Of a DNA stretch of 37,042 nucleotides, positions 2 to 35,783 are shown piece after piece; position 1 is the stretch's first letter, and each line of letters opens with the position of its first letter. Both the position numbers and the translations under genes were made by a program. The notes beneath the pieces were generated by a model, which was not told the DNA's origin, made no database searches, and worked only from the letters and a program-made list of their open reading frames with translations. This stretch comes from Gemmatimonadota bacterium (GTDB lineage: Bacteria; Gemmatimonadota; Gemmatimonadetes; Gemmatimonadales; Gemmatimonadaceae): positions 1 to 37,042 of the forward strand of contig JAGWYS010000007.1 of the NCBI GenBank assembly GCA_018969225.1, given 5' to 3'.

Positions 2-130
2 GGGACGATTGCGGTGGGGACGTGGGCGGATTTTGTGGTGCTTGGGGGGGAGGTGGTAGGAGGGAGGGTGGAGATGACGGTGGTGGGGGGGCGGGTGGGG
101 TACTGCCGGGCGGGAGGGTGTGGGTTGTAG
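2..130 (+). CDS. C-terminal fragment of an amidohydrolase-family protein (5' end outside window)
   Basis: An open frame enters from the left edge and ends at TAG 128-130, giving about 42 residues. It begins GTIAVGTWADFVVLGG and continues VEMTVVGGRV. The pattern G-x-I-x-x-G-x-x-A-D-x-V-V-L followed by a short strand and T-V-x-G-G-R-V is the usual end of metal-dependent amidohydrolases, where the chain returns to the small beta-sandwich domain. The catalytic barrel lies outside the window, so substrate and metal ligands cannot be judged. The last residues (YCRAGGCGL) are not typical and may be lineage-specific. The family call is an inference from this short motif only. Confidence 0.6.
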   Translation, partial: GTIAVGTWADFVVLGGEVVGGRVEMTVVGGRVGYCRAGGCGL

Positions 131-28734: not shown

Positions 28735-29517
28735 TTAGGCGGTGCTTCCGGATTTGTCGTGCAGGCGGGTGCGTACGGGCGCGGCCAGGGCGGCGTTCGT
28801 GGCGATCACGTCGCCGCCGAAGGCGGTGGTGCGGCCGCGCCAGTCGGTGAAGGCGCCGCCCGCCTCGGTCACCAGCGGCAGCACGGCGGCGGCGTCCCAC
28901 GGGTTCATGCGGTCGTCCACCATGATCTCCGCCCGCCCGGTGGCCAGCAGCAGGTAGCCGTAGCAGTCCCCCCAGGTGCGAACCACGCCGCAGTCGGCGG
29001 CCAGCGCGCGCCACTGCGCCGCGCGGTGCGGGCGCCCGGGGAAGCGCTCGTCGGTGATGCACGCCGTGGCCGCCCCTAGCGCGTCCACCGCGGAGACGCG
29101 CGCGCGGCTGCCGTTCCACCAGCACCCTTCCCCCACGGCGGCCACCAGCGTCTCCTGCACCGCCGGGTAGCAGACGGCGCCCGCCAGCACGGTCTCCCCC
29201 TCGCAGCACGCCACCAGCGTGCCCCACAGCGGCACGCCGCGCACGAAGGCCTTGGTGCCGTCGATGGGGTCGATGATCCAGCGCCGCGCCGCCTCCGGGC
29301 GCACGACGCCGAACTCCTCCCCCATCACGCCGTCGGCCGGGAAGCGCTGCGCCAGCCACGCCCGCGCCGCCTGCTCCGCCTCGCGATCGGCGATGGTGAC
29401 CGGCGACCCGTCCCCCTTGGTGTCCACCGCCACGCCGGCGCCGTACCAGCGCATGGCCACGCCGGCCGCACGCCGCGCCAGCTCCTCGGCCGCCTGCAGC
29501 AGCAGCGACGGGGTCAC
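28735..29517 (-). CDS. hisN: histidinol-phosphatase (inositol monophosphatase family)
   Basis: 260 residues from GTG 29517, overlapping the hisF stop (GTGA). It removes phosphate from histidinol phosphate, the step before HisD. The IMPase-type metal motifs are [28 protein letters not shown] and [17 protein letters not shown]. The DPIDGTK-x-F-x-x-G-x-P form is typical of HisN-type enzymes, and the position within the his operon supports that role over general inositol phosphatase. hisB here is a single-domain dehydratase, so a separate phosphatase is needed. Stop TAA at 28735-28737. Confidence 0.93.
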
Positions 29518-30278
29518 GGCGCCTCCCGCACGTCCACCCCGGCCGCCCGCATCCCGCCCTTGAGCGCCCCCACCGTGGTCACCCCGTCGTGCAGGATCCC
29601 CGCCACCAGCACCGCGTCCGCCTTCCCCTCCCGCACCGCCTCCACCAGGTGCCGCGCCTCGCCGGCCCCCCCCGACGCGATCACCGGCACCGACACCGCC
29701 TCGGCCACCTGCCGCGTGAGCGCCACGTCGTACCCCGCACGGGCGCCGTCGCGGTCGATGGCCGTGAGCAGGATCTCCCCCGCGCCGCGCGCCACGCACT
29801 CCTGCGCCCACGCCACCGCCTCCAGCGGCGTCGCCTCGCGCCCTCCCTTCACCCACACGCGCGCCACGCCGTCGGCGTCGCGCCTGGCGTCGATGGACGC
29901 CACCACGCACTGCGCGCCGAAGCGCTCCGCCGCCTCGGTGAGCAGCGCCGGGCGGGTGACCGCGGCGGAGTTGACCGACACCTTGTCGGCGCCGGCGCGC
30001 AGGGCGCGCGCCATGTCGTCGGCGGTGCGCACGCCGCCGCCGATGGTGAGCGGGATGAACAGCCGCTCGGCGGTGCGCCGCGCGACCTCCAGCAGCGTGG
30101 CGCGCGCCTCGGCGCTGGCCGAGATGTCCAGGAAGGTGATCTCGTCGGCCCCTTCGGCTTCGTAGCGCGTGGCCAGCACCACCGGGTCCCCCACGTCGCG
30201 GAGCCCGACGAACCGCACCCCCTTCACCACGCGGTCTCCCTGCACGTCCAGGCAGACGATCAGCCGGCGGGTCAGCAT
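29514..30278 (-). CDS. hisF: imidazole glycerol phosphate synthase, cyclase subunit
   Basis: 254 residues from ATG 30278. A (beta-alpha)8 barrel that takes ammonia from HisH and closes the imidazole ring, giving IGP and AICAR. IVCLDVQGDRVVKGVRF holds the first catalytic Asp; FLDISASAEARATLLEV, IPLTIGGGVRT, DKVSVNSAA and LLTAIDRDGARAGYD (second Asp) are all canonical. PVIASGGAG binds phosphate. It follows hisB after a 13-bp gap, the only internal gap from hisG to hisN. Its stop overlaps the hisN start. Confidence 0.97.
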   Translation of the reverse strand: MLTRRLIVCLDVQGDRVVKGVRFVGLRDVGDPVVLATRYEAEGADEITFLDISASAEARATLLEVARRTAERLFIPLTIGGGVRTADDMARALRAGADKVSVNSAAVTRPALLTEAAERFGAQCVVASIDARRDADGVARVWVKGGREATPLEAVAWAQECVARGAGEILLTAIDRDGARAGYDVALTRQVAEAVSVPVIASGGAGEARHLVEAVREGKADAVLVAGILHDGVTTVGALKGGMRAAGVDVREAP

Positions 30279-30291
30279 CGTGCGCGCGCCC

Positions 30292-30831
30292 TCAGGGGGT
30301 GACGTCGAGCCGCACCGCGCCCTTGGTGCTGAACACCGCCCCCGTCTCCACGAACGCCTCGCGCAGCGCCAGCCCCAGCGCCTTGAACGCCGCCTCCACC
30401 ACATGGTGCCGGTCGGTGCCGCGCAGCACGCGCACGTGCACCGTGGCGCGCGCGTGGTCGGCGAAGGAGCGGAAGAAATGGTCGTACAGCGGCGCGGGAA
30501 GCGGACCGCGGTAGTACGGGCGCCCTCCCAGGTCCACCACCACCTGCACCAGCGCGTCGTCCATGGGGACCGTGCGCTCGCCGTAGCGCGCGCACCCCGC
30601 GGGGAGGAACGCCGCCACCGCGTGCCCGAGGGTGATGGCCACGTCCTCGATGAGGTGGTGCGGCAGGTCGCCCGTGGCCTCACACACCAGGTCCACCCCG
30701 GCGTAGCGCGCCAGCGCCACCAGCATGTGGTCCAGGAAGGGCTCGGTGGTGGCCACCTGCGCGGCGCCGGTGCCGGCGGTGAGGGTGATGCGAACCTTCG
30801 TCTCGCGCGACTCGCGCGCCACGGTCGTCAT
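30292..30831 (-). CDS. hisB: imidazoleglycerol-phosphate dehydratase (monofunctional)
   Basis: 179 residues from ATG 30831, overlapping the hisA stop by 4 nt. It dehydrates IGP to imidazole acetol phosphate. The two duplicated metal motifs HHLIED and HHVVEA are present, along with FLDHMLVALARYAG near the start and TKVRITLTAGTG-type N-terminal strand. It lacks the N-terminal HAD phosphatase domain of the E. coli fusion, which fits with the separate HisN. The length is slightly short of the usual 190-200, because the N-terminal and C-terminal tails are trimmed. Confidence 0.96.
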   Translation of the reverse strand: MTTVARESRETKVRITLTAGTGAAQVATTEPFLDHMLVALARYAGVDLVCEATGDLPHHLIEDVAITLGHAVAAFLPAGCARYGERTVPMDDALVQVVVDLGGRPYYRGPLPAPLYDHFFRSFADHARATVHVRVLRGTDRHHVVEAAFKALGLALREAFVETGAVFSTKGAVRLDVTP

Positions 30832-31559
30832 GCGCCGAACTCCTCCGCGGTGTGGCGCGCGTCCAGCGCGCCGGTGTAGAGCGCCATCCCCAGCACCGCG
30901 CCGGCCGCGCCGCGGTGCGCCAGGGCGCGCAGGTCGTCCAGCGTGGCCACCCCGCCCGAGGCGAGCAGGGGGACGGCGGCCTCCGCCGCCAGCTCTTCCA
31001 TCAGCGGCAGGTCGGTGCCCGCCATCCGCCCTTCCAGCTGCACGGCGGTGACCAGCAGCGCCGCCAGCGGCAGGCCGTCGCACGCGCGCACCAGGTCCGT
31101 GACGTCGTGCGCGGAGGTGGCGCTCCAGCCGCGCGTCACCACCTGCCGGCCGCGCACGTCGGCGGCCAGCACCAGCTGCCCGGGATAGCGGAGCGCCATC
31201 GCCTCGCGCCAGTGCGCGTCCTCCACCGCGCGCGTCCCCACCACCACGGCGGCTGCGCCGTCGTCCAGCAGCGCCGCGATGTCCTCCTCCTCGCGCACCC
31301 CGCCCCCCACCTGCACGGGGACGGCGCCCGCGCCCTCGCGCGCCACCTCGCGCAGCAGCTCGCGCACCAGCGCGCGGTTGCTCCCCCGCCCGGTGGCGGC
31401 GTCCAGGTCCACCACGTGCAGACGGGCAAAGCCGGTGCGCACCCACTCGCGCGCCACCTCCACCGGGTCGTCCAGGCGCACGCGCTCCTGCGCGTAATCG
31501 CCCCCCACCAGCTGCACGCAGCGACCCGCGCGCAGGTCCACCGCCGGGATGGCAATCAT
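30828..31559 (-). CDS. hisA: ProFAR isomerase
   Basis: 243 residues from ATG 31559. It performs the Amadori isomerisation of ProFAR to PRFAR. The first catalytic Asp is in IPAVDLRAGRCVQLV; the second is in LVLAADVRGRQVVTRGW; the catalytic Thr is in LLVTAVQLEGRMAGTD. The last motif is usually T-D-I-x-x-D-G-x-x-x-G and here reads T-A-V-x-x-E-G, so the Asp after Thr is lost and D-G is E-G. VQVGGGVREEEDI and PLLASGGVATLDDLRAL are the two phosphate sites. The gene overlaps hisH and hisB by 4 nt each. Confidence 0.95.
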   Translation of the reverse strand: MIAIPAVDLRAGRCVQLVGGDYAQERVRLDDPVEVAREWVRTGFARLHVVDLDAATGRGSNRALVRELLREVAREGAGAVPVQVGGGVREEEDIAALLDDGAAAVVVGTRAVEDAHWREAMALRYPGQLVLAADVRGRQVVTRGWSATSAHDVTDLVRACDGLPLAALLVTAVQLEGRMAGTDLPLMEELAAEAAVPLLASGGVATLDDLRALAHRGAAGAVLGMALYTGALDARHTAEEFGA

Positions 31560-32179
31560 GCGGCCACTCCCGCCGCCATGGCCAGGAACGCGCGCAAGAA
31601 GGCGAGCCCGGGGGCGCTGGACTTCTCCGGGTGGAACTGCACCCCCACCGCGCTCCCCGCGCGCACGGCGGCGGGGAAGCGGTCCCCTTCGTGCTCACTC
31701 CACGCCACGACGGCCTCCTGGGCGCCCGCGGCGGGGCGCAGCACGTAGGAGTTGGCATAGTAGGCCAGGCGAAGATCCGCCGCCTGCAGCAGCGGATCGC
31801 GCACCGCCTCCAGCCGGTTCCAGCCAATCTGCGGCACGCGCACGCTGCGTAGCCGCTGCACCCGCCCGGCCACGAGCCCCAGCCCCTCGCCGGGCCCCTC
31901 GTCGCTGGTGTCGGCGAACAGCTGCATGCCCAGGCAGATCCCCAGCACCGGAAGCCCGGCGGCCACGGCGTCGCGGATGGCGTCGCGCCCCGGGGCGAGG
32001 CGCGCGGCGGCGGGGGCGAAGGCGCCCACCCCCGGCAGCACCACGGCGTCCGCGTCGCGACACAGCGTCTGCGGGTCGGGGTCCACCCGCACGGTGGCGC
32101 CCCCCGCCTCCAGCGCCTTCACGAGCGAGTGGAGGTTACCCGCGCCATAGTCGAAGCAGGCCACGCGCATGGTGCTCAT
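31556..32179 (-). CDS. hisH: imidazole glycerol phosphate synthase, glutamine amidotransferase subunit
   Basis: 207 residues from ATG 32179 (a second ATG at 32170 precedes RVACFDYGAGN). It hydrolyses glutamine and passes ammonia to HisF. The nucleophile Cys is in LGICLGMQLFAD; the His and Glu of the triad are in GVQFHPEKS; the oxyanion strand is VVLPGVGAF. The start ATG overlaps the hisC stop (ATGA), and the stop overlaps hisA. hisF is separated from it by hisA and hisB in the order H-A-B-F, rather than the common B-H-A-F. Confidence 0.96.
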   Translation of the reverse strand: MSTMRVACFDYGAGNLHSLVKALEAGGATVRVDPDPQTLCRDADAVVLPGVGAFAPAAARLAPGRDAIRDAVAAGLPVLGICLGMQLFADTSDEGPGEGLGLVAGRVQRLRSVRVPQIGWNRLEAVRDPLLQAADLRLAYYANSYVLRPAAGAQEAVVAWSEHEGDRFPAAVRAGSAVGVQFHPEKSSAPGLAFLRAFLAMAAGVAA

Positions 32180-33276
32180 GTCTCCAGGTCCCGGGGTCCG
32201 GCCAGCACGGCGTCCAGCGCCTCCAGCAGCACGGTCATCTGCTCCCACGGCCCCACGCTGATGCGCAGGGCGTCGCCCACCCGCGGGAGCGCCTCGAAGG
32301 GGCGCACGGCCACGCCGCGCGCGCGCAGCGCCTGCCCCACCGCCACGGCGCCCGGCACCGGCACGCACACGAAATTGGCCCCCGACGGCAGTGGCGACAG
32401 CCCGCGCGCGCGCAACGCGTCGGCCAGCCGCTCGCGCACGGCCACCGCCAGCGCCACGTGCGCGTCCACCCAGGCCGCGTCGTCGCGCACCGCGGCCAGC
32501 GCGGCGCGCTCGGCGGGCGCCGACACCTTGTACGGCCCGCGCGCCTTCTCCAGCTCGTGCACCACCAACGGCGCCCCCAGCGCGTACCCCACGCGCAGCC
32601 CCGCCAACCCGTACGCCTTGGAGCAGGTGCGCACCACCAGCAGGTTGTCGGCGCGCGCCAGGAGCTCCACCGCCGACGTGCCGGCGAACTCCGCGTACGC
32701 CTCGTCCACCACCACCAGCCCGGGGGCCTCGGCCACGGCGCGCTCCAGCAGCGCGCGCGCCACCACCACGCCGGTGGGGTTGTTGGGGGAGCAGAGGTAG
32801 AGGATGCGCGGGCGCGCCGCCAGCAGCGCGTCCAGGTCGGGCTGGTGCGCCGCGTCCTCCGTCACGCCCACGTAACGCAGCGCGTTGCCGCGCGCGAAGA
32901 GGGGCACCATGGCAAACGACGGCACCGGCGCGGCCACCACCATGTCCGGCTCGGCAAAGGCGCGGAAGGCGCAGTCAAGCAGGTCGTCGCTGCCGCAGCC
33001 GGTGACGACCATGTCGACCGAGACGCCCGCGCGCGCGGCGAGCGCCGCCTTGAGCTCGGCGGTGTACAGCGACGGGTAGCGGGTGACCGCCTCGGGGTCG
33101 AGCGCGCGCAGCGCGGCGGCCGCGTGCGGGGGGATCCCCCAGCGGTTGGTGTTGTCGGTGAGGTCCAGCGCCACGGGGGCACGCCGCGGGTCGTACAGCG
33201 GCACGTCGGCCAGTGCGGCCCGCGCCAGGCGGTGGCGGGGAGGGGCATGCCCTTCCGCATTCATGGTCGCACTCAT
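32176..33276 (-). CDS. hisC: histidinol-phosphate aminotransferase
   Basis: 366 residues from ATG 33276 (4-nt overlap with hisD). A fold-type I PLP enzyme that transaminates imidazole acetol phosphate with glutamate. LDLTDNTNRWGIPP is the N-terminal substrate strand, GCGSDDLLDCAFRAF is the PLP-phosphate loop, YLCSPNNPTGVVV, LVVVDEAYAEF (Asp contacting the pyridine nitrogen) and TCSKAYGLAGLRVGYALG (Schiff-base Lys) follow. ISVGPWEQM carries the conserved C-terminal Arg-region (LRISVG). Two in-frame ATGs near the start (residues 1 and 5) leave the exact N-terminus open. Confidence 0.96.
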   Translation of the reverse strand: MSATMNAEGHAPPRHRLARAALADVPLYDPRRAPVALDLTDNTNRWGIPPHAAAALRALDPEAVTRYPSLYTAELKAALAARAGVSVDMVVTGCGSDDLLDCAFRAFAEPDMVVAAPVPSFAMVPLFARGNALRYVGVTEDAAHQPDLDALLAARPRILYLCSPNNPTGVVVARALLERAVAEAPGLVVVDEAYAEFAGTSAVELLARADNLLVVRTCSKAYGLAGLRVGYALGAPLVVHELEKARGPYKVSAPAERAALAAVRDDAAWVDAHVALAVAVRERLADALRARGLSPLPSGANFVCVPVPGAVAVGQALRARGVAVRPFEALPRVGDALRISVGPWEQMTVLLEALDAVLAGPRDLET

Positions 33277-34637
33277 GGGCGCGCCTCGGCGGCGACCCGT
33301 CGCGCCGCCGCGGCGTGCCCCGGCAGCCCTTCGGCGTCGGCAAAGCGCGCCACGTCATCGGCCAGCCGCGCGGCCGCGTCTGGGGACACCTCCTGCCAGC
33401 TGGTCCAGCGCACGAAGTCCGCGGTGGAGAGCCCCGAGTGCAGCACGCCGGCGCCGCCGGTGGGGAGCACATGGTTGGCCCCCGTCATGTAGTCGCCAAA
33501 CGCCACGGCGCTGTGCTCCCCCACGAACACGGCGCCCGCGCCACGGAGCCCCTCCAGGAGCGGGGCGCGCCACGGCTCGGCCACCATGAGCGACAGGTGT
33601 TCGGCCGACCACTCGCTGGCAAAGGCCATCGCCTCCCCGTGCGAGGGGACGGTGATGAGGGCGCCGCGGGCGGCCAGCGCCTGGGCGATCACCTCCAGCC
33701 GCGGCATCTCGCGCCCCTGCGTGGCCAGCGCCTCCTCGACCTGGCGCAGCTGGGCCGCCGCGGTCTCCCCCGGCCCCACCAGCAGGGCCAGGACGGCGGC
33801 GTCGGGGTCGTGCTCGGCCTGCGCCAGCAGTTCACGCGCCACGGCGGCGGCCGAGGCGGTGCCATCGGCGATGATGAGCAGCTCGGAGGGGCCGGCGGGG
33901 GAATCGATGCCGCACCAGGTGCTCACCTGTCGCTTGGCTTCGGCCACCCAGGCGTTGCCCGGTCCCACGATGCGCGCCACGCGGGGGATGGTGGCGGTGC
34001 CGTAGGCCATGGCCCCGACGGCCACGGCACCCCCCACGGCAAAGAGGCGGTCCACCCCGGCCAGCGCGGCGGCGGCGCACACCACATCCGAGGGGAACCC
34101 CGTGCTGGAGGGGGGCGAGCAGACGATGACGTCGGGGACGCCGGCCACGCGTGCGGGGATGGCGCCCATCAGCAGCGAACTGGGGTAGGCCGCCTTTCCG
34201 CCCGGGGCGTAGATCCCCACACGCGGGAGGGGATCGGGGCGGCGCCCCACGACGATCCCCGGCTCGGGGGTGCACTGCACCGGGACCGGCTTGAAGGCCT
34301 CGTGCACCGTGCGGATGTTGCGGGCGGCGCGCTCCATGGCGGCGCGCAGCGCCGGGTCGAGGGCGTCGAGCGCCCGCATCCAGTGCGCGCGGGGCACCTC
34401 GAGGTGCTCGAGGACGAGGCGGTCGATGGAGCGGGAGAGGGCGCGGATGGCGTCGTCTCCCCCCTGCTTGACGTCCTCGAGGATGCGGGCGGTGCGGCTG
34501 CGGACGCTGGCGTCCGCGGCCACCCCGGCGCGGTCCATGAGGAGGGCGCGGGTGGCGGGGGGGAGGTCGGCGAGGGGTCCCCGGTACCGCACGCGCAATG
34601 GCGCGGCCGGCGCGGGGGTCGGCGCGGGGGCGTTCAT
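33273..34637 (-). CDS. hisD: histidinol dehydrogenase
   Basis: 454 residues from ATG 34637 (overlaps the hisG stop by 4 nt). It oxidises histidinol to histidine in two NAD-dependent steps. Conserved blocks are RVGIYAPGGKAAYPSSLLMGAIPARVAGV split over residues about 137-165, then GVDRLFAVGGAVAVGAMAYGT, KIVGPGN-like RIVGPGNAWVAEAKRQV, GPSELLIIAD, QAEHDPDAAVLAL (zinc-binding and catalytic Glu/His region), and SAEHLSLMV, GDYMTGANHVLPT, FVRWTSWQ. An Ala/Pro-rich N-terminal 12 residues precede the domain. It is the second gene of the operon, as in most bacteria. Confidence 0.96.
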   Translation of the reverse strand: MNAPAPTPAPAAPLRVRYRGPLADLPPATRALLMDRAGVAADASVRSRTARILEDVKQGGDDAIRALSRSIDRLVLEHLEVPRAHWMRALDALDPALRAAMERAARNIRTVHEAFKPVPVQCTPEPGIVVGRRPDPLPRVGIYAPGGKAAYPSSLLMGAIPARVAGVPDVIVCSPPSSTGFPSDVVCAAAALAGVDRLFAVGGAVAVGAMAYGTATIPRVARIVGPGNAWVAEAKRQVSTWCGIDSPAGPSELLIIADGTASAAAVARELLAQAEHDPDAAVLALLVGPGETAAAQLRQVEEALATQGREMPRLEVIAQALAARGALITVPSHGEAMAFASEWSAEHLSLMVAEPWRAPLLEGLRGAGAVFVGEHSAVAFGDYMTGANHVLPTGGAGVLHSGLSTADFVRWTSWQEVSPDAAARLADDVARFADAEGLPGHAAAARRVAAEARP

Positions 34638-35503
34638 GGCACCAGCCGTTCGATGCGGGTCACCAGGATCCCTTCGGCGCCAAGGGTGCGGAGCTGCGCG
34701 ATGGTGCGGTACACGGCGTTGGCGGCCACCACGGCATGGACGGCCACGAAGGCGCCGGCGGAGGCGATGTCGATGACGGTGGGGCCGTTGAGCCCCGGGA
34801 GGATGGCGCGGACGTGGTCCACGGCGCTGCGCGGCACGTTGGCCATGAGGTAGCGCTGTCCGCGGGCACGGATGACCGAGGCGAGGGCGCTGGCGAGTTC
34901 CTCGACCTCGGCGGCGCGCGGGGTGGCGGCGATGGCGTCGGCGGTGACGAGGTGGGCGCTGGAGGTGAGCACCGTGGCGACCTCGCGGAGGCCGTTGACG
35001 CGGAGGGTGGAGCCGGTGGAGGTGAGGTCGACGACGACGTCGGCGATGCCGAGGTGGGGGGCGATTTCGGCGGCGCCGGAGACGGGGACGATCTCGGCGG
35101 GGATCCCCTGAGCGTCCAGGTAGCGGCGGGTGATGCGCGGGAAGACCGTGGCCACCCGGGTGGGGGCGGGGGCGGCGCGGAGGGCGTCGAGGGAGGGGGG
35201 GGAGCCGTCGTCGCGGGTGGCGACGACGAGGCGGCAGCGCCCGAAGCCGAGGTCGAGTCGGGAGGCGAGGGGTCGCCCGGACTCCTGGACGAGGTCCCAG
35301 CCGGTGACGCCGGCATCGGCGGCGCCGTCGGCGACGAATTCGGGGATGTCCTGGGCGCGGACGAAGATGGCCTCGTACTCGCCGCCGAGGGAGGCGGTGA
35401 GGGCGCGGTCGCCGGCGGTGCGGACCTCGAGGCCGGCGTCGTTGAAGAGGTCGCGCGTGTCTTCGGCGAGGCGGCCCTTGTTGGGGAGGGCGATGCGGAG
35501 CAT
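34634..35503 (-). CDS. hisG: ATP phosphoribosyltransferase, long form
   Basis: 289 residues from ATG 35503. It commits PRPP and ATP to histidine synthesis. MLRIALPNKGRLAEDTRDLF, FVRAQDIPEFVADGAADAGVTGWDLVQE and the PRPP-binding strand DVVVDLTSTGSTLRVNGL are canonical. The C-terminal about 75 residues (YLMANVPRSAVDHVRAILPGLNGPTVIDIA) are the ACT-like domain of the long form, which binds histidine for feedback inhibition, so HisZ is not needed. The longer in-frame start upstream would read through the leader and repeats, so 35503 is preferred. A purine run GAGGGGGG lies about 22 nt upstream. Transcription is controlled by the attenuator described at 35542-35716. Confidence 0.97.
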   Translation of the reverse strand: MLRIALPNKGRLAEDTRDLFNDAGLEVRTAGDRALTASLGGEYEAIFVRAQDIPEFVADGAADAGVTGWDLVQESGRPLASRLDLGFGRCRLVVATRDDGSPPSLDALRAAPAPTRVATVFPRITRRYLDAQGIPAEIVPVSGAAEIAPHLGIADVVVDLTSTGSTLRVNGLREVATVLTSSAHLVTADAIAATPRAAEVEELASALASVIRARGQRYLMANVPRSAVDHVRAILPGLNGPTVIDIASAGAFVAVHAVVAANAVYRTIAQLRTLGAEGILVTRIERLVP

Positions 35504-35541: not shown

Positions 35542-35568
35542 AAAAAAGCCCGTCCGGGGGGGACGAGC
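35542..35568 (-). terminator. intrinsic terminator of the his attenuator
   Basis: On the minus strand GCTCGTCC (35568-35561), loop CCCCC, GGACGGGC (35555-35548), then TTTTTT (35547-35542). This is an 8-bp stem with one G-T pair, directly followed by a six-T run, about 40 nt before hisG. It is the best Rho-independent terminator in the window, placed before rather than after a gene. Confidence 0.85.
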
Positions 35569-35640
35569 CGAGGGATGGTGTGGGGGGGGTCCGGGGAGCC
35601 GGAACCGAATTACCGCCGCACGTGGGGGCCCCTCGGCCCG
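35564..35640 (-). promoter_or_regulatory. antiterminator helix of the his attenuator
   Basis: On the minus strand CGGGCCGAGGG (35640-35630, inside the leader ORF, after the His run) can pair over 11 bp with CCCTCGGCTCG (35574-35564), with one G-T pair. This uses five of the eight bases of the terminator's 5' arm, so the two structures exclude each other. Segment 35639-35626 can also fold locally (GGGCC-gagg-GGCCC), which could sequester the antiterminator arm. Confidence 0.7.
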
Positions 35641-35681
35641 GTCGGGCGGGGGCGATGGTGGTGGGTGCGGGCGGCGAGCAT
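35610..35681 (-). CDS. hisL: histidine operon leader peptide (HHH)
   Basis: A 23-codon frame from ATG 35681 to TAA 35612-35610 starts MLAARTHHHRPRP and has a fourth His near its end (GPHVRR). Codons 7-9 are CAC CAC CAT (35663-35655). It lies between a good promoter and a terminator in front of hisG, so it has the structure of a his attenuator leader: starved ribosomes would pause at the His run and favour the antiterminator. The ATG is 7 nt past the -10 and has no Shine-Dalgarno, so translation is probably leaderless. The His run is short (three) compared with seven in enteric bacteria. I infer function from arrangement; translation is not shown. Confidence 0.75.
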   Translation of the reverse strand: MLAARTHHHRPRPTGPRGPHVRR

Positions 35682-35687
35682 CCGTGG

Positions 35688-35716
35688 ATCGTACGGTGGG
35701 CGGGGGGGGGAGTCAA
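35688..35716 (-). promoter_or_regulatory. his operon promoter
   Basis: On the minus strand TTGACT (35716-35711), 17-nt spacer, TACGAT (35693-35688). Both boxes match sigma-70 consensus closely and the spacing is ideal. Expected transcription start is around 35681, the A of the leader ATG. Confidence 0.8.
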
Positions 35717-35717
35717 G

Positions 35718-35783
35718 GAGGTGGAGATGGAGATGGAGATGGAGTTGGAGGTGGGAGTTGGAGTTGGAGGTGGGGGTGGAGAG
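35718..35783. repeat. GGAGAT/GGAGTT hexamer array upstream of the his promoter
   Basis: Plus strand units: GGAGGT, GGAGAT (three), GGAGTT, GGAGGT, then GGGAGTT, GGAGTT, GGAGGT, GGGGGT. On the transcribed side of the promoter this is a pyrimidine-rich tract immediately upstream of the -35. Purine-strand asymmetry makes triplex or unusual helix structure possible. Confidence 0.8.

Follow-up and report, generated by a model that had tools for sequence, protein, structure and literature searches.

A predicted histidine attenuator with a putatively leaderless leader peptide in front of hisG in Gemmatimonadota

The region preceding hisG in the stretch of DNA analysed here (the window, 37,042 nucleotides, contig 108 of a draft assembly of a soil/water bacterium with 375 contigs and 86% completeness) very probably carries a histidine-responsive, ribosome-mediated transcription attenuator, the leader peptide of which is read from a leaderless message. 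It lies between hisG, encoded on the minus strand, and a divergently transcribed cupredoxin gene. The elements of this switch, their conservation, the spacing between promoter and leader start, the coevolved pairing and the dependence of folding on ribosome position were all obtained computationally. Comparison of upstream regions confirmed that the putative leaderless-type his attenuator extends far beyond the window, over Gemmatimonadota and some myxobacteria. The parts of the leader region and the genes of the operon are as follows.

35711..35716, minus strand: −35 element TTGACT; relatives mostly have TTGAC(G/C/A/T)
35688..35693, minus strand: −10 element TACGAT, with a 17-nt spacer to the −35 element
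35610..35681, minus strand: putatively leaderless leader-peptide ORF of 23 codons, MLAARTHHHRPRPTGPRGPHVRR and stop; ATG at 35681, 6 nt past the −10 element
35655..35663, minus strand: three putatively regulatory His codons, CAC CAC CAT; the run is conserved in relatives
35628..35653, minus strand: protector (1:2) hairpin within the leader ORF, from folding without a ribosome and with a ribosome at the stop codon
35630..35640, minus strand: antiterminator 5′ strand CGGGCCGAGGG, from the minimum-energy structure and the cognate pairing test
35564..35574, minus strand: antiterminator 3′ strand CCCTCGGCTCG, overlapping the terminator 5′ arm
35547..35569, minus strand: intrinsic terminator hairpin GGCTCGTCC-CCCCC-GGACGGGCT, 9 pairs, −14.3 kcal/mol
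35542..35547, minus strand: six-T run of the terminator (TTTTTT)
34634..35503, minus strand: hisG, long form with C-terminal domain, ATG at 35503 (TIGR00070, PF01634, PF08029)
33273..34637, minus strand: hisD, overlapping the hisG stop (TIGR00069)
32176..33276, minus strand: hisC-like aminotransferase (TIGR01141, 265 bits, cut-off 277 bits)
31556..32368, minus strand: hisH (TIGR01855); ORF as listed, the match starting near residue 70
30828..31559, minus strand: hisA (TIGR00007, 210 bits, cut-off 229 bits)
30292..30837, minus strand: hisB, corresponding to the IGP dehydratase portion of a longer ORF (residues 331–504 of ORF 30292–31827; NF002111 and other HisB models, none of them reaching its cut-off)
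29514..30278, minus strand: hisF (TIGR00735, residues 136–386 of ORF 29514–30683)

NCBIfam cut-offs were passed by hisD, hisH and hisF, while hisC, hisA and hisB are best matches that remained below theirs. The preliminary description of this DNA had proposed the promoter TTGACT-17-TACGAT, a leader frame with three adjacent His codons and an 11-bp antiterminator followed by a terminator with a six-T run ahead of hisG, and all of them were recovered on the minus strand and in that order. One of the 11 antiterminator pairs is G-U. The proposed sharing of bases between antiterminator and terminator also holds, its extent being 5–6 bases (35569–35564) rather than exactly five. In shuffled sequences of 1.3 kb a match to the promoter occurred 0.0 times and one to the terminator 0.2 times on average.

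The start of transcription and, in the cell, initiation by 70S ribosomes, stalling and termination are inferred; the switch would then operate in the following way. Transcription would most likely start at the leader AUG or a few bases from it, and the first ribosome to load, presumably a 70S particle, would therefore bind directly to the 5′ end. Under a shortage of charged tRNA-His this ribosome would stall on the His run and mask the protector hairpin's 5′ arm. The proposed role of this hairpin is to sequester the antiterminator 5′ strand once the ribosome has gone past. With the ribosome stalled, CGGGCCGAGGG would be free to pair with CCCUCGGCUCG, and the antiterminator so formed would deprive the terminator of its 5′ arm and let RNA polymerase read through into hisG, hisD, hisC, hisH, hisA, hisB and hisF. 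If histidine is plentiful, the ribosome would move on, the protector hairpin would re-form, and the terminator would fold and stop transcription in the U run. Two of the features that characterize attenuators of the trp/his type, clustered codons for the pathway amino acid in a leader ORF and an intrinsic terminator between the leader and the first gene, were found directly, and the third, a mutually exclusive antiterminator controlled by the ribosome, was found as a prediction.

Relatives were collected via hisG (133 of 179 genomes of the family and 264 of 370 of the phylum, plus named genomes), and their upstream DNA was then compared; this survey covers the families other than those with a distant form of HisG (most of f2, f7, f10 and f11), and its loci are phylogenetically related, so that their counts are not independent. 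In the window's own genus and in genus g10, all 29 relatives compared (loci L090–L118) have TTGAC(G/C) and TAnnnT separated by 17–18 nt, followed within a few bases by a leader of the type MxxxxxxHHHAHHGHGPTGRG and, 3′ of it, by the terminator GGCCCGTCC-loop-GGACGGGCC-T run. On a wider scale His leaders occur in four families of Gemmatimonadota, in Myxococcaceae and in a few MAGs labelled Eisenbacteria, altogether at 137 hisG loci, where the −35/−10 spacer is 17 nt long in 112 cases and the start codon is ATG in 118 and GTG in 13. The loss of His codons and stems in relatives had been set beforehand as a test of the proposal; both are kept, the His codons being even more numerous than in the window (4–10 per leader, mode 6), and the promoter-to-start spacing, terminator and antiterminator are retained likewise. 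No His leader was found at hisG of L142 (genus g4) and of L219, L221 and L223 (f6), where hisG stands in other contexts.

One may suppose that the terminator is constitutive, the short ORF has no regulatory function, and the run of His is just a by-product of a C-rich, CAC-rich region. The region is indeed C-rich, and the CT-rich repeats upstream of it recur elsewhere in the genome. However, a stricter scan, which demanded a short ORF 5–10 nt past the promoter with at least four His in nine residues and covered loci with at least 200 nt of upstream DNA, was passed by 119 of the 142 hisG upstream regions with His as the clustered residue, Gly coming next with 22, and the controls (reversed and reverse-complemented strings) yielded 0 His clusters. 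Moreover, both CAC and CAT codons are in use, and the terminator arm and its antiterminator partner have evolved in concert. We therefore regard such a by-product as scarcely probable at all. The window copy itself fails the stricter scan, because there are only three His in its run.

A simple scan picked up a terminator in 126 of 133 loci, and the remaining 7 have imperfect hairpins with T runs when inspected by eye. The leader ORF pairs more strongly with the region of the terminator 5′ arm than its codon-shuffled versions do, with a mean z of −2.5 and a place among the first 5 of 100 in 72% of cases. Among 64 genus representatives the cognate pairing amounts to −32.3 vs −28.7 kcal/mol with partners from other genera, energies being approximate for GC-rich RNA, which pairs easily, and none of 5,000 partner-swap permutations (sd 0.41) was as good as the cognate set. 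Taken alone, the leader of the window does not pair with its cognate unusually strongly as compared to other GC-rich partners, and the claim of coevolution therefore rests on the whole set of loci. The RNA encoding the conserved PTGRG after the His run forms the protector hairpin (CCCGA-CGGG-UCGGG in many relatives) and the antiterminator strand; judging from this, it may be the RNA rather than the peptide that is conserved at this place.

The effect of the ribosome was modelled by masking an assumed footprint with 15 nt on the 5′ side of the A site and 12 nt on its 3′ side. In partial transcripts of 126 loci, with the 3′ arm of the terminator not yet made, the antiterminator has a mean probability of 0.79–0.81 as long as the A site is still 3–9 codons short of the last His of the run; the value falls to 0.47 on this last His and to 0.24–0.28 three to six codons further on. 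With a ribosome at the stop codon mean predicted antitermination is intermediate (0.60), and release of the ribosome is therefore needed. Folding of the full transcript of the window gives terminator probabilities of 0.10, 0.10 and 0.21 with the A site at its three His codons, as well as 0.98 without a ribosome and 0.88 with a ribosome at the stop codon, and the corresponding minimum-energy structures are the antiterminator versus the protector plus terminator. At equilibrium the response of the full transcript to a stalled ribosome is visible in the window and in about a quarter of the loci. Most relatives favour the terminator even then (median 0.95–0.98), because it is very stable, and for them the model therefore needs co-transcriptional kinetics.

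The small number of His codons raises the question of whether the window copy is a degenerating attenuator, which has lost its second His block (HHGH) and is now only weakly regulated. Its run comprises three His (four in the whole peptide) against the 4–10 typical of relatives, and the conserved HHGHG block is missing. Nevertheless, the copy has kept an intact promoter, frame, stop codon, protector hairpin, antiterminator and terminator, and it is predicted to switch more sharply than most relatives do, which makes degeneration rather unlikely. The copy is shortened, yet in the model its predicted switch falls exactly at the three His codons.

Leaderless translation is suggested first of all by the position of the promoter. 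The distance from the −10 element to the start codon is 5–10 nt in 127 of the 137 loci with a His leader, that is in 86 of 91 from the window's family, 20 of 21 from f6, 8 of 8 from f8 and 2 of 3 from f2, as well as in 8 of 10 from Myxococcaceae and 3 of 4 from MAGs labelled Eisenbacteria; some of the misses reflect a choice of the finder, as in L094, where an upstream TTG was picked, though the ATG of this locus is 9 nt past the −10. In these 127 loci, the first purine that occurs 6 nt or more past the −10 opens the start codon in 83 cases. The ATG of the window, 6 nt past the −10, thus coincides with the expected transcription start, as had been proposed, this start itself being a predicted one. 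With the promoter so close, there is no room for a Shine–Dalgarno site. The absence of such a site had also been suggested, and it found support when the 17 nt before the leader were paired with the 16S tail: pairing of −5 kcal/mol or stronger was registered for 5.6% of leaders vs 9.7% of shuffled sequences, while for hisG itself it reached 19.8%. Both the promoter spacing and the missing Shine–Dalgarno site fit a leaderless mRNA with a predicted start position. In about half of the genus, however, the start codon is 9–10 nt past the −10, and a UTR of a few bases is therefore possible there; we infer leaderlessness from promoter spacing, which in some relatives would allow a 5′ UTR of 1–4 nt.

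Titles and abstracts of the literature yielded no transcription start site data for Gemmatimonas or Myxococcus. The predicted status of the start gives some space to a true His attenuator that is not leaderless, transcribed from another promoter further upstream and translated by internal initiation independent of Shine–Dalgarno pairing, and weak matches to −35 or −10 in L126, L128, L130, L167 and L178 point in the same direction. Against this, the promoter-to-start distance is preserved in four families and Myxococcaceae, SD-like sequence before the leader start is absent, and ATG and GTG serve as starts at one and the same position, which is what a start set by the promoter should give. An upstream start thus appears quite improbable.

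Attenuation of his operons is well established in enteric bacteria. Like enterobacterial hisL (RF00514, His_leader), the window has a leader with His codons and mutually exclusive antiterminator and terminator before hisG; unlike hisL, its leader starts at the predicted transcription start without a Shine–Dalgarno site, and the leader sequence of the window and its relatives is different (HHHAHHGHGPTGRG-like). Rfam search of the window gave no match to RF00514 at the gathering score and no other relevant match, and in eight relatives there was no match to RF00514 at E up to 1. Leaderless genes are widespread in bacteria (PMC3160421), and the transcript of S. meliloti trpL (rnTrpL), controlled by transcription attenuation, has its 5′ end at the AUG of the leader ORF (PMC7298713), the amino acid being Trp there and His here, and the host belonging to Alphaproteobacteria. 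Leaderless cysteine attenuators of mycobacteria (Canestrari et al. 2020, by its title as a reference in PMC13236596) resemble the window, as far as the title tells, in that a short ORF, itself leaderless, contains a run of the amino acid under regulation and acts as attenuator, but this amino acid is Cys rather than His, and the phylum is another one. In Firmicutes, also another phylum, his attenuators outside RF00514 were predicted in 2022 with 3–5 His codons in the leaders and alternative hairpins before his genes, leaderlessness not being mentioned in the passages considered (PMC9413887). The his operons of C. glutamicum are transcribed as leaderless mRNAs; unlike the window, the structural genes themselves are leaderless there and a His leader peptide is missing (PMC3896937). 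Before the Firmicutes additions made by a survey of 2010, leader peptides were known only from Proteobacteria and Actinobacteria (PMC2965389).

Thus, a leaderless leader of an attenuator is not new per se, given S. meliloti trpL and, by title, the mycobacterial Cys systems. For his attenuation in Gemmatimonadota or Myxococcota, leaderless or not, no description was found in the open-licence literature, which agrees with the preliminary description in knowing of no case in this lineage. What is added here is classical his attenuation with an apparently leaderless leader, placed across a whole phylum. It suggests that a ribosome landing site is not needed for building a textbook gene switch, and it provides a resource of well over a hundred naturally occurring versions of the same switch. 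Since the promoter fixes the start codon, the speed of 70S loading on a bare 5′ end becomes testable, coupling to RNA polymerase being needed before the terminator about 110 nt downstream, and cultured hosts exist (Gemmatimonas, Myxococcaceae).

Seven loci of Myxococcaceae (L049, L050, L057, L065, L073, L076 and L088) have a His leader of the HHHHAHHRLGPDG type with GTG starts 6–9 nt past the −10 and a terminator before hisG. In the HisG tree Myxococcaceae are placed among sequences of the window's family, while f6 and f8 form groups of their own; this placement fits a putative transfer of hisG together with its leader, in a tree that is unrooted and sampled with a bias towards window-like HisG.

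In the single-contig genome of a genus mate (G043) the pattern of a promoter with adjacent ATG has 9 matches vs 2 for the reversed pattern. Besides hisG, one of them precedes the gene of DAHP synthase, with a leader RFYYPPTRMGPG rich in Phe/Tyr codons. This arrangement, together with a terminator, is present at 17 loci of the genus (L236–L252, Gemmatimonas), most of which match the promoter pattern: a TTGACA-type promoter, a start 5–9 nt past the −10, Phe/Tyr codons of the RFYYVPTRMGPG type and then the terminator GAGGCCCGTGC/GCACGGGCCTC. Judging by these elements, the DAHP synthase gene in the genus is preceded by a second putatively leaderless attenuator leader. A third, of the Leu type, probably precedes ilvB in the genome of the window (L262, G000:C311), where TTGCCA-17-TATAGC-9-ATG opens a leader (MSSTTLLLLTQPG...; MSSTTLLLLTQPGAPVGALGV) with four Leu codons, and a terminator-like stretch CCCAACGCCCCACC...GGTTGGGGC-TTTTT separates it from ilvB. 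This genome has a fragment of leuA and full ilvB; among seven Gemmatimonas genus mates searched leuA was not found and ilvB was found in only two, and the case of ilvB therefore rests mainly on one genome. In the upstream regions of trpE no leaderless leader was found. Based on these data one can tentatively assume, at somewhat less than even chances, that leaderless leader peptides are the standard means of amino-acid attenuation in Gemmatimonadota (phylum-wide for his, in the genus for DAHP synthase and in this genome for ilvB), Myxococcaceae having received or shared the his version together with hisG. If so, 70S initiation at the 5′ end would be a prerequisite for the control of amino-acid synthesis, and this control could respond to the state of ribosomes and initiation factors besides tRNA charging.

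Directly 5′ of the promoter, at positions 35718–35775 of the window, there are CT-rich imperfect repeats (CCATCTCCATCTCC and CCAACTCC, minus strand), and about 25 similar tracts are present elsewhere in the genome.
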